Origin: Chloroflexota bacterium
GTDB taxonomy: Bacteria > Chloroflexota > Anaerolineae > Anaerolineales > UBA11858
Length of the DNA: 42,744 nt
Assembly: GCA_018263575.1 (NCBI GenBank)
Contig: JAANWX010000058.1
Coordinates: forward strand, 1-42,744
Direction of reading: 5' to 3'
Below, piece by piece: positions 2,070-32,283 of the stretch. The position numbers and the translations under genes were made by a program. The notes beneath the pieces are model-generated. The model had not been told where the DNA came from, did not search any database, and saw nothing but the letters and a program-made list of their open reading frames with translations. Numbering within the stretch: the stretch's first letter is position 1; every line of letters starts with the position of its first letter.

Positions 2070-2714
2070 TTATAAAGCGTCCTCAACCCAGGTGATCTTC
2101 GCCTCGGGTAAGTTCTCTTTTCGCCAGGCGACGCACCCCTCAGCGAGTTCTTGCGCTTGTTGGTAATAATCGGGTTCCTTACGGCGCCGGCGCTCATAGG
2201 CCACATATGGCCCCAACTTAGCCCAGGCTTTCACGATCATGGGATTCATCCAGGGCATGATCACTTCATCGGGTATCCAATTTCCTTGCGCCAAAAACGC
2301 TACCCGGTCAAGAGAGTTTAAAACCGTCTTGATGTAGCCCTTATCTTCCTCCGACAAGGACGAGAAATCTTTTTCAGGCGCAGGGTCATCCGGCAAATTT
2401 TGGAAAACCCAGCGCCGGGCAGCGATGCTTTCTTTGGAGTTGAGTTCTTCGAATAAGCGATCCGTAATTTCAAGATGACGCAGGGCGGCTTGTTCGTTCA
2501 ACTCCCGGTACGCCAAATACCCGCCTCCCAGGAGGGCGGCCGCTGTCACTGCCCCGGAGAAGGCTTCCACCATGTTCAAGTACTGGGCTGGAAGTCCTAC
2601 CAAACGCAAAAATAAATAGAGAAAAAGCAAGCCAAATAGCCAAACAATAAGGCCCGCGATTGTGATTAAAATTGTTTTGAGCAAATCTTGGGTTTCTTCG
2701 CTTAGGGAGTTCAT
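2070..2714 (-). CDS. Membrane protein, DUF4760-like
   Basis: 214 aa ORF with N-terminal TM segments, then a helical domain (LFEELNSKESIAARRWVFQNLP...). Confidence 0.6.
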   Translation of the reverse strand: MNSLSEETQDLLKTILITIAGLIVWLFGLLFLYLFLRLVGLPAQYLNMVEAFSGAVTAAALLGGGYLAYRELNEQAALRHLEITDRLFEELNSKESIAARRWVFQNLPDDPAPEKDFSSLSEEDKGYIKTVLNSLDRVAFLAQGNWIPDEVIMPWMNPMIVKAWAKLGPYVAYERRRRKEPDYYQQAQELAEGCVAWRKENLPEAKITWVEDAL

Positions 2715-2745
2715 AATTCCTTCCTCGTAACCATTCCTTTATGTA

Positions 2746-2865
2746 GGACGAATTGGTAATTCGTCTGTCGAGATGCCATCTCGACCTACATTTTCTAGGC
2801 GAATTGGTAATTCGCCTAGGCAAGGTGTAACTTTGCACCGAGATTACCATCTCGACCTACATTTT
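2746..2865. repeat. Array of five short palindromic modules
   Basis: GACGAATTGGTAATTCGTC, TCGAGATGCCATCTCGA, TAGGCGAATTGGTAATTCGCCTA, GGTGTAACTTTGCACC, CGAGATTACCATCTCG; both halves end in CTCGACCTACATTTT. Confidence 0.85.
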
Positions 2866-2893
2866 TGGGGAGGGTAGTGGATCATTCCCTTCC

Positions 2894-5800
2894 CTAACAC
2901 TCACTATACCCACACGAATAACACTTGCGGCAGCCTTCTTCGTTGACCAGGGTCGCTTGGCCACAATCGGGGCAAAGATCGCCAATTTTGATGTCTGCAC
3001 CTCGCGGCTTTTCTAAAGTCTCCGAACTATGATCGGGGGTGGAGAAGTCGGCGAAAGCGGGCCTATCCGCTGTATTATTTAAATACTCCCTTAGCACTTG
3101 AGCAACACCGTCTGGTAAAGAATGTACCCGGTTCGAGCCAAACCCCATCGGCCGCCTTCCCCCAATGCCCAAAAGCTGTCTGACGATCTCTCCCATCCGT
3201 TCGCGGGGAGAGATGGGCGAAGAAAGCCGCAAGATATACGACAAAGAGCGCCCAATGGCTTCAGAAACAGCCGCCGTATCAGAACCAGCTTTGGCGGTAT
3301 TGACGAAAACCTCAAAAGGCTGGCGGTTGCCGTTTTCGTTGATGGTCACAAAAGTCTTTCCCAAGGGCGTCTCGATGTTGTAAGTTGAACCCATCAGCCG
3401 CTGGGGACGAGGTTTTTTGCTTTCGTTCCAGATGCGCACTTCTTCCTCATCTTTTGTAGGGGCATCCGCATTCGTCTCTAAAACAACTTTTTCACGCGAG
3501 CCGGTCACATAGACCGTAAGTCCCTTGCAGCCTAATTCCCAGGCTTTTTGATAGGCCTCGGCCACATCCTCAGGTTGGGCCCCAGCGGGGAAATTGATGG
3601 TCTTAGAAATGCTGTTATCGACAAAAGCCTGTAAAGCAGCCTGGGTGCGAACATGCTCCTCGGCGGTGATGTCTTGGGCAACCACAAAGGTCTCACGCAT
3701 CTCAGCGGGGAGGTCTTCGATGCCCTGGCAAGTTCCACGCTCTACCACTTGCTCCACGATCGTCTGGCGGGTCTCCTCTTCTAGGCCGGACTCTACCAAG
3801 GCAGCTTCGAAAAGGGGGCTGGTATAGGTTAGCTGGAGGTCTTGGCCGTTATCTTCCACGTGACGGGTGTAGGCCAGGGCAAAGACAGGTTCACATCCAT
3901 ACCCTTCACAACCAGAGACCGTGCCCGTCGTTCCGGTGGGGGCAATGGTGGTTTGGGCGGCGTTGCGGATGCCGTGCTCGGCAATGCCCCGGGTGATCGT
4001 GTCCCAGTCCAGGTGGGGGCGTCCCCAATCGCTCCGGTGGGGGAGGAGGGGGACGGGGGCCGGCCAGGTCACCGTTTGGGGATCGTAAACGCTCCCCCGG
4101 ATGGCGGGGAAGGCCCCACGATCCCCCGCCAGTTTGACGCTAGTGAGCATGGTGTGGTACCGGACGAATTCCATCACCTGGGAGGCGAACTCTTGCCCGG
4201 CCTCCGACCCGTATCCCACCCCCACCCGGAACATGAGGTCACCCAAGCCCATGATGCCTAAACCAATCCGCCTGGCCTGGTGGGCCGATTCCTCCAATTT
4301 TGGAACAGCCGGAACGTAAGCGTTGGCGTCCACCACATCATCCAGAAAATAGGTCGCCAGCTCTACGCTTTTTTGTAATTTCTCCCAATCGACGTTTCCA
4401 TCCTCCGTGGCGTGCTGGGCCAGGTTGACGGAGCCTAAGCAGCAATTCTCATAGGGGCCTAGGAACTGCTCTCCGCAATTATGCACAACCAAACCATTGG
4501 CCACAAAGGAATGTGTGTCTGGCTGTTGTAAATCGTAGACCATTTCTTTGCCATCTGGCTCCACCTCTAACACAGTTGCAGTGAATGTTTCTTGATAAGG
4601 GCCGCGAACCATGCGATTGAGATAATCCACAACTTGATCTTGTTTAGTTTGGGTTAGAAACCCAATTTCATTGGTAAAACTAATTAAATTGGTTTTGCTG
4701 ATCGCTAGATCATGTTGTGCCAAGCAATAATATTCTTTTACGCCCCCTTTTCCGTCAGGTAACATCCGAAAACCTGCTGAACGCCTTTCCTCGTAAATTT
4801 TGCTCGCTATACCAAAATTAAGCAATAATTTTTGAACATTTTTCAACAACGGTAAATGACTAGAACTCAAGCGTACAGAACAACCCTTATTTCCCCCATC
4901 GTTGACTTGCCCATCAGCGGTAAACAATGCTTGTAAAAATCCGCGCTGGATTTCCTCACTTCCTGAGAAAACTGCTTCTGGGACAATGAGTTTATCTTCT
5001 GTCAGACCATAACTTTCAGCCCATGTCCTTAACCGTGCAGAAGAAACACGCGCCTCATTGCGTTCGACGATATTTACAATACCAACAGGATAATGGCGGC
5101 TTTGCTGTTCTGGCCTATCCACCAAATCTGTGACTATCTCTGAAAAAGCAGGTGCAAGTTCACTTTTTTCATCGCCAAAGAAAGATAAAACAGCACGCAC
5201 AATATTAATTGTACCATCGCCTACCAACCAACCTAAAACACGCCCTTCTTCCAGTGTTCCCTCATCCCCAAAACCACCTCTACGGTTGAAAATATGAACT
5301 TTGTCATTAGGTTTTAAATGCTGTGCTTCAATCCATCCATGCTCCGTCATTACCTGGTGATCTGCTGTTAACCTTAGCTCATAACCCTCGCGCAGCGTCA
5401 AACGATAAACATCCTTGATCCCTGTTTCAACAACAGCCGTTGAGGGTAACAGTGTATCCTTCCCAAAACGGCCATCGGTCGCTACCCGCAAAGGCACGCC
5501 TTTTTTAGCAAGATCAACTGCCCGTTGTAAACCATTTTCTGTATAGATAAGCGTTTCACCAGTTACGCAAGGATTCGTAGCCTTTAACCTATAAAGATGC
5601 GGGACCGGATTATCGCGATTAGCGGTATCCAAGAACAAGACGCCCGGCTCACCGTTGTGGTGAGCTTGTTCCACGATTTTTTGGAACAGCTCGCGGGCGG
5701 GGAGGGTTTTGTAGACCACGATGGGAATTCCAGCTTCTTCCGCTTCTTCTAATGTGCCATGAAACCCTCGGTAAGTGGGGTCTTTCACATCCGGGAAACG

Positions 5801-7849
5801 CAATTCCCACACATCATCATTTTCAACCGCTTCCATGAAGGCGTCGGTGATTCCTATGGAAATGTTGAAATTGGTGATGGCGTTCTCGCTGGTTTTGCAG
5901 GCGATGAAGTCCTCTATGTCGGGGTGGTCAACGCGCAGGACGGCCATATTGGCTCCACGACGAGTATTATGAGTCACTATCCCATTGGCAAGATAAGTAT
6001 GGTTATCATCTACCTCAAGGTCAAGGGTCAAAGCAGGTTCAACTTCTTCAACCGTGTTAACCTCAAGAAACCATTGTGATTCCACGGGAAGAGCGTTATC
6101 AGCGAAGTCTCGATACTGGTTTTCTAGTTGTCTGTATGCCGAAAGCGTCAGATGTCGGTTCCCACGTAAGTAACGCAAAAGTCTTTTTCGTAAAGTTGGT
6201 TCGGTAGAGCGAAAATTCTTCCCAGTTCCACGTCCTTTAGAATCAATTTGAGGGAGGGTAATAGCATCCAAAACAGGCTGAATCCACCATTTTGGCTGGG
6301 GTAAAATATAGCTTTTCTCTCGGGAGAAATCGGGTTGATGTGTGTAGCAAACCATAAAACGGCTGCCTTCATCACATCCGATGTGTTGCTGCCAGACATC
6401 TAAAGCCATGTGAGAACGCAGGCGTACAAGCCACTGAGGGTGTTCCCCAAGACGTTCACTTTCGGCGTGTTGACGAATGGAGACTGGCGCTCCCAACCCA
6501 ATGAGCAGCATAGCCACTTCTTCCGCTAACCGATAGGAGGTCGTATTCAACTGAGGATAATTATGTGAGAGTGCGCCATCGGCCTCGAACAATCCGCGCA
6601 AATACGCTCCTACGATGTTTGGAGGGCTTTGACGAATCAGGCGGGGAACAAAAACATTTGTGCTGCTTGGTTTTTCTAATCCATTGATGAGCAAGAAATC
6701 TTTGATTGCCCTGTTATCTATTACCAAAGTGATTGAATCATCATTGTCTTTTTGTTGATGATGAAAACGCACACCGGGAAAAAGTTCCTCAAGAATTTTG
6801 GGTAACTCTTCCATCAAATACGAATCATGGCTGATACTAAATCCAATTCGATGATCATCATCCGAGCTTGCCACAAACCCATCTCCGGCAAGGTAGCCGA
6901 GCAGAAAAGCTAATGTTTCATCTAGAACAGAGGGGAAGGCCGGCATAACTTGATTGCCATGTTGGCGTGTTGGTTTCCGTAAAGCCTGTAATTTACCCTT
7001 GTGCTGGCCTAAAATCGTCAAGATCGAATCGCCGGGTCGCAATTCGCTCAATGGTCGCCAAGCAGGGCCTTCTTTGCTCATCACTTTGACTTTGTGGTCA
7101 GGGGTTCCGCTTAAAGTGATGCCCTGGCGCGTTGAGACTTGTAAGACAGCATCTACCCCATTGTTGTATCCTCTAGGGGAGAATCGAGCGCCTTCATCTG
7201 TCGGGACAGATAGGTTATGTTCTTGCCATCCGGGAATTTTTGGGTCTACTATTTCATCTAAATACAAAAGCCCGCTACCGGTAAAAACCAATGTCTCTGG
7301 GACAAGACAACCTCCCTGGGCGATTTCCCCAAAGGCCTGGTCATACACGTGGAGGAAGCCTACAGGGCCGGTGGCGTGCCCAGCGGAGGTTTTGATGAGG
7401 TCGCCCCGGGGCCGAAGCTGGGAGAAGGAAAACCCATTTCCGCCCCCTGTTTGCTGGATGAGGGCCGCGTTGCGCAAGGTCTGGAAGATGCCATCCTCCC
7501 GGCGGCCCATATCGTCGGTGAGGGGGAGAACGAAACAAGCCGCTAATTGGCCCAAAGGTGTGCCCGCTCCGGTGAAGGTAGGGGAGTTGGGCAAGAAGCG
7601 TTTCGAGGCTAAGAGGTCGTAGAAATGTGCCGCTTTCTCGTGAACATTTTCTCCCCATTTCTCTTCCTCTTTGGCGATGTGGTAAGCTACCCGCCAAAAA
7701 GTGTCCTCGACTTCTTCGATTGGCTCTCCATCATCATTACGACGTAAATAACGCCGTTTGAAGACCTGGTAAGCGTTGTCCGAAAGCTTGACTTTCTTAA
7801 CGCCTTCAGGGAGGGGAGGGGTTGTGTATTTCTCGTTGTTGTCCACCAT
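2894..7849 (-). CDS. nrdJ: Vitamin B12-dependent ribonucleotide reductase (class II), precursor with two inteins
   Basis: 1651 aa ORF; exteins LPNSPTFTGAGTPLGQLAACFVLP, ATNP|CGEQFLGPYENCCLGSVNL, APTGTTGTVSGCEGYGCEPVFAL; C-terminal CPDCG..CRKCYSCGYSEC. Confidence 0.95.
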   Translation of the reverse strand: MVDNNEKYTTPPLPEGVKKVKLSDNAYQVFKRRYLRRNDDGEPIEEVEDTFWRVAYHIAKEEEKWGENVHEKAAHFYDLLASKRFLPNSPTFTGAGTPLGQLAACFVLPLTDDMGRREDGIFQTLRNAALIQQTGGGNGFSFSQLRPRGDLIKTSAGHATGPVGFLHVYDQAFGEIAQGGCLVPETLVFTGSGLLYLDEIVDPKIPGWQEHNLSVPTDEGARFSPRGYNNGVDAVLQVSTRQGITLSGTPDHKVKVMSKEGPAWRPLSELRPGDSILTILGQHKGKLQALRKPTRQHGNQVMPAFPSVLDETLAFLLGYLAGDGFVASSDDDHRIGFSISHDSYLMEELPKILEELFPGVRFHHQQKDNDDSITLVIDNRAIKDFLLINGLEKPSSTNVFVPRLIRQSPPNIVGAYLRGLFEADGALSHNYPQLNTTSYRLAEEVAMLLIGLGAPVSIRQHAESERLGEHPQWLVRLRSHMALDVWQQHIGCDEGSRFMVCYTHQPDFSREKSYILPQPKWWIQPVLDAITLPQIDSKGRGTGKNFRSTEPTLRKRLLRYLRGNRHLTLSAYRQLENQYRDFADNALPVESQWFLEVNTVEEVEPALTLDLEVDDNHTYLANGIVTHNTRRGANMAVLRVDHPDIEDFIACKTSENAITNFNISIGITDAFMEAVENDDVWELRFPDVKDPTYRGFHGTLEEAEEAGIPIVVYKTLPARELFQKIVEQAHHNGEPGVLFLDTANRDNPVPHLYRLKATNPCVTGETLIYTENGLQRAVDLAKKGVPLRVATDGRFGKDTLLPSTAVVETGIKDVYRLTLREGYELRLTADHQVMTEHGWIEAQHLKPNDKVHIFNRRGGFGDEGTLEEGRVLGWLVGDGTINIVRAVLSFFGDEKSELAPAFSEIVTDLVDRPEQQSRHYPVGIVNIVERNEARVSSARLRTWAESYGLTEDKLIVPEAVFSGSEEIQRGFLQALFTADGQVNDGGNKGCSVRLSSSHLPLLKNVQKLLLNFGIASKIYEERRSAGFRMLPDGKGGVKEYYCLAQHDLAISKTNLISFTNEIGFLTQTKQDQVVDYLNRMVRGPYQETFTATVLEVEPDGKEMVYDLQQPDTHSFVANGLVVHNCGEQFLGPYENCCLGSVNLAQHATEDGNVDWEKLQKSVELATYFLDDVVDANAYVPAVPKLEESAHQARRIGLGIMGLGDLMFRVGVGYGSEAGQEFASQVMEFVRYHTMLTSVKLAGDRGAFPAIRGSVYDPQTVTWPAPVPLLPHRSDWGRPHLDWDTITRGIAEHGIRNAAQTTIAPTGTTGTVSGCEGYGCEPVFALAYTRHVEDNGQDLQLTYTSPLFEAALVESGLEEETRQTIVEQVVERGTCQGIEDLPAEMRETFVVAQDITAEEHVRTQAALQAFVDNSISKTINFPAGAQPEDVAEAYQKAWELGCKGLTVYVTGSREKVVLETNADAPTKDEEEVRIWNESKKPRPQRLMGSTYNIETPLGKTFVTINENGNRQPFEVFVNTAKAGSDTAAVSEAIGRSLSYILRLSSPISPRERMGEIVRQLLGIGGRRPMGFGSNRVHSLPDGVAQVLREYLNNTADRPAFADFSTPDHSSETLEKPRGADIKIGDLCPDCGQATLVNEEGCRKCYSCGYSEC
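4478..5569 (-). other. NrdJ intein 2 (364 aa) with LAGLIDADG homing-endonuclease motifs
   Basis: LKATNP|CVTGETLIYTENG ... HSFVANGLVVHN|CGEQFLG; motifs LGWLVGDGTI and FLQALFTADGQV. Confidence 0.93.
5966..7309 (-). other. NrdJ intein 1 (448 aa) with LAGLIDADG homing-endonuclease motifs
   Basis: Starts Cys181 (GEIAQGG|CLVPETLVFTGSG), ends TYLANGIVTHN|TRRGAN; motifs LGYLAGDGFV and YLRGLFEADGAL. Confidence 0.93.
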
Positions 7850-30971: not shown

Positions 30972-32108
30972 ATGAAATTACACGAGTACATATCCAAAAG
31001 AATATTCGCCGAGTATGGCGTTGCCATCCCCAAAGGAGAAGTAGCGACCACGCCCACCGAGGCTAAGCAAATTGCGGAAGACTTGGGTGGGCGCGTTGTC
31101 GTTAAAGCCCAGATTCTGGTTGGGGGGCGGGGAAAGGCCGGGGGCATCCACCTGGCGGAATCCCCCGCAGAGGCTACAGAGCACGCTTTCGACATCTTAG
31201 GCATGGAGATCAAAGGCCTGCCAGTCCGAAAGGTTCTCATCGATGAAGCGGCAGATATTAAAAGCGAGATTTACCTGGGCATCACCAATGATCGTGCGGC
31301 CCGGAAACCGGTCATGATGGCTTCTGCCTCGGGCGGGGTGGATATTGAAGAAGTAGCCCAGAAGACCCCCGAAAAAATCATTAAGGTACACATTGATCCC
31401 CTGATGGGCCTGCAAAACTATCAAGCCCGTGACCTGGCCGCCGGGATTGACCTGCCACGTGACCTTTGGCGTGGTTTTGGGAAAATTGCTTGCGGACTTT
31501 GGAAAGTTTACCTGGAAAGCGACGCTACTTTAGCAGAGATCAATCCCTTGGTTATCACGGCTGAAAACAGATTATTGGCCGTGGATGGCAAGATGGTTTT
31601 GGACGATAATGCCCTGTTCCGCCATCCGGACCTGGCGGAGATGCGTGACCTAGACCTGGAGGAGGAGGCCGAAATCAAGGCCAGAGAAAACGGGCTTTCC
31701 TATATTAAGCTTGACGGCGACATCGGCTGTATGGTCAACGGAGCGGGGCTGGCGATGACCACCATGGACATTATCAAGTTGTTCGGCGGAGAACCGGCCA
31801 ATTTCCTGGATATTGGAGGTGGGGCCAGCGCAAAAAAGGTCGCCTCCGCCCTGCGCATCATTCTCTCTGACCCCAGTGTGAAGGCCGTTCTTTTCAATAT
31901 TTTTGGCGGTATCACGCGGTGTGATCTGGTAGCCCAAGGCATCTTGGACGCTCTGAAAGGAATAGACACTGAAGTTCCTATGGTCGTGCGCCTGGTGGGC
32001 ACAAATGCCAAAGAAGGGCGCCAACTTTTAGCCAATGCCGAGATGGAAACCGCGGAGACCCTGGCCGACGCGGCCCGGAAGGCTGTAGCTGCAGCCGTGC
32101 CTGCTTAA
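30972..32108 (+). CDS. sucC: Succinyl-CoA synthetase (ADP-forming) beta subunit; last 3 codons and stop supplied by a MITE
   Basis: [27 protein letters not shown]...[16 protein letters not shown]...[16 protein letters not shown]. Confidence 0.95.
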
Positions 32109-32283
32109 TATGCTGGTGGTGTAGCCGGGGTTTCTACGCCGCGCCGTGCGGGCCTGTGGCCACTAGCCAAGGGCTGTACACCGTAGGCGCACAACGTAAC
32201 CCCGTGGGCGCGAGATATCGTCCCCCTCCGGGGATGCTGCGCGAAAATCTCGACTACAGACCACTACCATTTTGAGCAATTAC
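32097..32283. mobile_element. MITE copy 2 (187 bp) with 8-bp target-site duplication CTGCAGCC
   Basis: CTGCAGCC at 32089-32096 and 32284-32291 flank GTGCCTGCTTAATATGCTGGTGGTGTAGCC...CTACAGACCACTACCATTTTGAGCAATTAC. Confidence 0.9.

Follow-up and report, generated by a model that had tools for sequence, protein, structure and literature searches.

A hairpin array beside a Chloroflexota ribonucleotide reductase gene probably consists of GTAG-tagged REP units, a family carried in this genome mostly as cores of 8-bp-duplication MITEs

The window, the whole stretch of 42,744 nucleotides analyzed here, comes from the assembly of a Chloroflexota bacterium of the Anaerolineales. An array of palindromic words lies just past the 3' end of a ribonucleotide reductase gene and just upstream of a DUF4760 gene (Table 1). 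The reductase, which by its name we take to be of the B12 type, carries intein splicing and LAGLIDADG domains. All the hairpin words quoted in an earlier note on this DNA are present: GACGAATTGGTAATTCGTC (2747-2765), GTCGAGATGCCATCTCGAC (2767-2785), TAGGCGAATTGGTAATTCGCCTA (2796-2818), GGTGTAACTTTGCACC (2824-2839) and CGAGATTACCATCTCG (2839-2854). Together they fall into two adjacent units within 2743-2860, unit 1 of 47 bp (2743-2789) and unit 2 of a 66-bp type (2795-2860).

In unit 1 two repetitive extragenic palindromes (REPs) with GTAG tags face each other head to head, an arrangement known as a REPIN. It reads GTAG, GACGAATT-GGT-AATTCGTC, a single T, GTCGAGAT-GCC-ATCTCGAC and CTAC; both hairpins have an 8-bp stem, a 3-nt loop and a GTAG tag at the outer end (2743-2746 and 2786-2789). 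The 51-nt strand at this site folds as DNA at z = -6.9. The earlier note had read both hairpin words correctly and had overlooked the GTAG/CTAC end tags and the head-to-head pairing that joins the words into a 47-bp unit. Unit 2 consists of three hairpins and is partly decayed: a class II palindrome with a decayed tag, a middle hairpin, and a class I palindrome that keeps its tag. Intact units of this three-part type are found at other sites in the genome (for example L034 and L101). At the decayed tag, CTAGGCGAATT stands where GTAGGGCGAATT is expected, and the second copy shows a 'TAGGC' arm because unit 2 has lost its GTAG tag beside the normal spacer CCTAGGCAA.

Table 1. Features of the array and its surroundings (window coordinates)
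Feature	Position	Strand	Remarks
Class II half of unit 1, GTAG-tagged REP	2743..2765	+	GTAG, then stem GACGAATT, loop GGT, AATTCGTC
Class I half of unit 1, GTAG-tagged REP	2767..2789	-	GTAGGTCGAGATGGCATCTCGAC; head-to-head with 2743..2765
Class II palindrome of unit 2	2795..2819		CTAGGCGAATTGGTAATTCGCCTAG; GTAG tag degenerated; compare intact L034, L101
Middle hairpin of unit 2 (66-bp type)	2820..2839		GCAAGGTGTAACTTTGCACC; position of GCAAAGTGCAACTTTGCACC in intact 66-bp units
Class I half of unit 2	2838..2860	-	GTAGGTCGAGATGGTAATCTCGG; tag CTAC at 2857-2860
Possible MITE frame left end, type B	2727..2742	+	GTAACCATTCCTTTAT; appears to resemble the GTAACYGGTCACTYCC ends of L105, L120
Possible MITE frame right end, decayed	2861..2887	-	weak, alone not significant
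Ribonucleotide reductase gene with intein	2894..7849	-	Pfam PF02867, PF14890, PF14528
DUF4760 protein gene	2070..2714	-	Pfam PF15956

These modules recur across the genome, as the earlier note had supposed. The word GAATTGGTAATTC occurs eight times in the 2.71-Mb assembly and its reversed control not once; a degenerate half-unit pattern, GTAGGNYGANNTNNNANNTCRNC, allowing at most one mismatch, matches 112 times (61 on the plus strand and 51 on the minus strand), compared with none for the reversed pattern. Because this pattern leaves three stem pairs free, covariation can be tested at those positions without selection bias. Watson-Crick pairs fill 97.4% of the free cells in 76 copies, compared with 40% after shuffling, and when only the 31 distinct sequences are counted the figures are 93.5% and 37.6% (sd 4.8). 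In 13 aligned 47-bp units, 208/208 cells are paired and 23 are changed on both sides; the covariation score is 0.301 against 0.091, none of 500 shuffles reaches it, and slid controls stay at or below 0.058, with the qualification that copies share ancestry and the cells are therefore not independent events. Several stem positions carry GC, CG, AT and TA pairs, that is, repeated change. The covariation of the arms is thus real and far above chance. The finding that the earlier note named as one that would refute it, other copies whose arms are not complementary, did not come about: mismatched arms were seen in only a few decayed copies.

The stems fall into two classes, GAnAT...ATnTC (class I) and GAnTT...AAnTC (class II). 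In the stretches of the window's genome that were read, 35 of 36 pairs combine one of each, many of these pairs sharing ancestry and hence not counting as independent events. Pairs in other assemblies, among which Go_Eff_bin_125 dominates, join class II to class II and still differ at one position or more. It is possible that such non-identical pairing serves to avoid one long perfect hairpin. GTAG REPs and REPINs are defined by a tag (GTAG, GTRG) 0-2 nt from a palindromic stem, by a stem of 6-13 bp with a short loop and alternative complementary residues, and by high-copy, mostly intergenic occurrence with head-to-head dimers; the family, with its 8-bp stem and 3-nt loop, agrees with this definition. 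On this architecture, rather than on a match to any of the 24 published consensus sequences, we classify it as a GTAG REP/REPIN family that appears to be new in this Chloroflexota group.

Most complete REPINs of the window's genome whose surroundings were read sit inside miniature inverted-repeat elements (MITEs), a mobile frame that the earlier note, right about the hairpin modules, did not see. The ends of these elements are terminal inverted repeats, GTATCWTCTCAA, bordered by an 8-bp target duplication. Outward from the core the copies are conserved as far as GTAAC/GTATC ends, type A reading GTAACTTCTCAATATTCCGGGGAAAT-REPIN-ATCAGCCCCCTATTTTTTGAGATGATAC and terminating in CCCCTATTTTTT, type B having GTAACYGGTCACTYCC; the elements measure roughly 60-250 bp. 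The end motif gives 196 matches against 15 for its control and is also numerous in five assemblies of the same genus or family (G006, G009, G015, G016, G017). The 8-mers beside the ends agree at seven or more of eight positions in 35 of 58 two-ended elements, compared with a mean of 0.7 and a maximum of 5 after shuffling. A single element is in a few cases counted among the 58 in more than one overlapping reading (for example L133 and L134), which lowers this rate rather than raising it. When duplication lengths from 5 to 12 were tried on these elements, only 8 stood out. Among REPIN carriers, 16 of 26 of type A show the 8-bp duplication, as do three of type B (L105, L111, L120).

The palindromic core of the frame can apparently be exchanged. 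A simple-motif sort of the 58 frames gave 26 with a REPIN, 18 with GTAGCC/GTAGTC hairpins, seven with GACCTCCGAGGT, three with ACCAGGT and four with other cores. The window itself holds two complete MITEs with a GTAGTC...GGCTAC type of core, one of the same superfamily at 544-749 and a second at 32097-32283, each with a perfect 8-bp duplication (TTTTAGCG and CTGCAGCC, respectively). A gapped-pattern search for an empty frame returned no match; separately, a 45-bp coreless frame with flanking 8-mers agreeing at 7/8 positions was seen on contig C121 of the window's genome (L131, 298-342), and is either a frame without a core from the outset or the product of a deletion. No clear frame was found around the complete REPINs at L001, L002, L005, L041, L055 and L099. 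At L002, on the end of contig C58, tandem REPIN copies with a period of 51 occupy 1490-1606 and reach the contig end; they seem to run in frame through an oxidoreductase-like ORF as 17-residue repeats, and an assembly effect could also produce this arrangement.

For the focal copy, 2719-2726 and 2888-2895 (CCTTCCTC and CCTTCCCT) form a candidate target duplication that agrees at 6/8 positions and is not significant alone. A type B frame with this duplication is plausible, yet too decayed for proof. The focal copy is probably an old, decayed composite insertion between the ribonucleotide reductase and DUF4760 genes.

Target duplications of fixed length are the mark of a DDE-type transposase, not of an HUH enzyme. 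The fixed 8 bp therefore implies spread by a DDE-type transposase, none of which was found in our searches. The 1.5 Mb of loci examined yielded neither an autonomous transposon that has the MITE ends nor a long TIR pair enclosing an ORF and bordered by a duplication; a 1.5-kb candidate (L183, in G009) was rejected because its ends do not form a TIR pair. GTAA ends with 8-bp repeats would, we presume, point to IS66 as the parent; that candidate was discarded, the genome giving no match to PF03050 while controls were positive. A search of a plasmid collection gave no match.

Exact copies of the commonest half-unit lie in 101 or more stretches from assemblies of Chloroflexota, and at least nine such assemblies other than the window's own have it. 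Carriers include Go_Eff_bin_125, where it forms tandem arrays with a period of 105, KLAP72, Anaerolineales BS750m-G45, Ardenticatenaceae S146 and Promineifilum SSF11. Three genes resembling those for REP-associated tyrosine transposases (RAYTs, which are HUH enzymes) have GTAG hairpins on their flanks in these genomes. The three encoded proteins served as seeds of a search profile; two of them score above the cut-off of NCBIfam REP_Tyr_transpos, the third reaches 78.5 of 80 bits, and the seeds match the solved E. coli-type TnpA-REP structure 4er8 (E 4e-8). Five matches to the profile, in four genomes, have E < 1e-80, and all five have on their flanks either the window family's REP or GTAG hairpins of matching architecture (L329-L332, L350); the next two (E 3e-57 and 1.5e-28) lack such flanks. 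The REP beside the RAYT gene of G063 is the window family's own sequence. Other RAYT-flanking hairpins have the same architecture with different arms, for example GTAGGGCGATTTGGCAAATCGCC, GTAGGACAGGTTGATAACCTGTC and GTAGCGCAAGATTGTATCTTGCG.

Searches of the window's own assembly with PF01797 and the RAYT profile found no cognate RAYT, which is weak evidence of absence because the assembly is split into 121 contigs and reaches a completeness of 90.7%. The Y1 proteins of this genome were rejected as the cognate enzyme: they have other palindromes, or none, on their flanks. One of them, a RAYT-like Y1 protein on contig C110 (L011, 342-953), is flanked by long palindromes of another kind (GATGTGCRTTGCACT), which resemble the 'TIRtrons' of PMC3733652. 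Other Y1/RAYT-like genes (L340, L341, L342) lie close to GTAG hairpins of another family (GTAGGGGCGAC..., GTAGGGGCAGG...), and appear to represent a further lineage of the REP/RAYT kind, the second in these Chloroflexota.

Overall, we give a probability of about 0.8 to the reading that the array is two units of a GTAG-tagged REP family, that this family now mostly forms the cores of 8-bp-duplication MITEs, and that a RAYT explains the covariation. A RAYT would have recognized the GTAG tag together with the folded single-strand hairpin. Stems could then change in sequence provided that both arms changed together, and the arms would covary because the enzyme tolerates matched stem changes. An enzyme that reads the tag and the folded shape would be expected to leave just this pattern of different arms beside RAYT genes, and this seems to us the most economical account of the covarying arms. 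A copying mechanism that preserves hairpins, suggested in the earlier note, is likely in view of the related RAYTs flanked by the same or similarly built palindromes in other Chloroflexota. REP pairs in the window's genome would now be mostly an exchangeable core of MITEs, and it is likely that a DDE-type transposase spread the elements that carry them. The REPINs may have been brought into the frames by a RAYT or through recombination of one frame with another, or frame and core may have arisen together. Somewhat speculatively, and at less than even odds, the system may have two tiers, in which REPINs of RAYT type serve as the exchangeable core within MITE frames of the DDE type; hairpins selected for their structure would then persist and spread in genomes without the cognate RAYT, and cores unrelated in sequence but alike in palindromic shape would be swapped between frames.

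An alternative that we consider unlikely, while the best placed of those weighed here, is that the palindromes are simply the interior of a DDE-type MITE, with coincidental GTAG tags, uninvolved RAYTs, and covariation produced by selection on the folded MITE, as DNA or RNA, or by template-switch repair of imperfect palindromes. The clear 8-bp duplications and conserved outer ends fit this alternative, as do the frames holding palindromic cores that bear no GTAG tag, such as GACCTCCGAGGT and ACCAGGT, and the failure to find a cognate RAYT in the assembly. Against it, other Chloroflexota carry this tagged hairpin both in tandem arrays that lack the MITE ends and beside RAYT genes, and in those relatives the tag and the stem boundary are conserved in like manner.

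RNA elements selected in place, as intrinsic terminators or 3'-end stabilizers whose structure would account for the covariation, are a much less probable explanation. Their case rests on location and folding: 53 of 67 clusters (79%) lie outside called ORFs, compared with 22% of random positions, the type-A frame has its CCCCTATTTTTT end, and predicted folds are strong. Against this, high copy number and target duplications indicate mobile spread, G-U pairs are few in the stems, and the contexts include divergent gene pairs and positions within ORFs (14 of 67 clusters, compared with 78% of random positions, by crude ORF calling). A terminator-like match, a GC-rich hairpin with a run of T behind it, was found once in the region, against 0.5 in shuffles, which is near chance. 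The role in 3' ends, mRNA stability or the nucleoid that the earlier note suggested is hypothetical. Chance palindromes or a sequencing or assembly artefact, which the presence of some copies at contig ends such as C58 (L002) and C15 (L124) might suggest, have a negligible probability, being refuted by the 112-to-0 count, by the occurrence of copies on many contigs and in further assemblies, and by the complementarity of the free pairs.

Many genomes contain REP sequences and lack the matching transposase, which raises the question of how the repeats persist. Carriage of REPINs in MITEs whose target duplications can be demonstrated would give them another way to spread. The Chloroflexota RAYTs, with REPs rewritten in sequence and unchanged in shape, form a ready set for asking whether the enzyme reads the tag, the stem shape or the sequence.

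Several parts of this system have counterparts elsewhere. Di Nocera et al. (2013, PMC3733652) give 24 consensus sequences of GTAG-tagged REP families, most with alternative complementary stem residues; their set includes a family from the Chloroflexi, T. roseum GTAG-23, which like A. variabilis GTAG-15 is reported within palindromes. The window's family shares with those described there a tag directly at an 8-bp stem, a 3-nt loop, complementary stem alternatives, head-to-head dimers and an intergenic location; it differs in that the enclosing palindrome is a mobile frame with 8-bp duplications. Since covarying arms and dimorphic pairs have already been described for GTAG REPs, the 'modular hairpin system' of the earlier note is of a known kind. 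Nunvar et al. (2010, PMC2817692) took the preservation of REP palindromes to suggest that complementary mutations are selected, and in E. coli the Y and Z2 units that border yafM are dimorphic REPs. The Chloroflexota system likewise has a REP-flanked RAYT gene, two REP variants per unit and palindromes preserved by complementary mutation, whereas its cognate RAYT was found only in relatives of the window's genome. As in the REPINs of Bertels and Rainey (2011, PMC3116915), two inverted REPs form the replicating unit; here, in contrast, that unit lies mostly within a larger MITE. The frames resemble the prokaryotic MITEs Correia, RUP and MITEAba12 (PMC2817692, PMC6382973, PMC10969869) in being short, in lacking an ORF, and in having terminal inverted repeats and a target-site duplication, and are unlike them in their 8-bp duplication and in an exchangeable palindromic core that is often a REPIN. 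MITEs that make 8-bp duplications and hold REPINs as an exchangeable core would go beyond the known systems and are a variant worth following.
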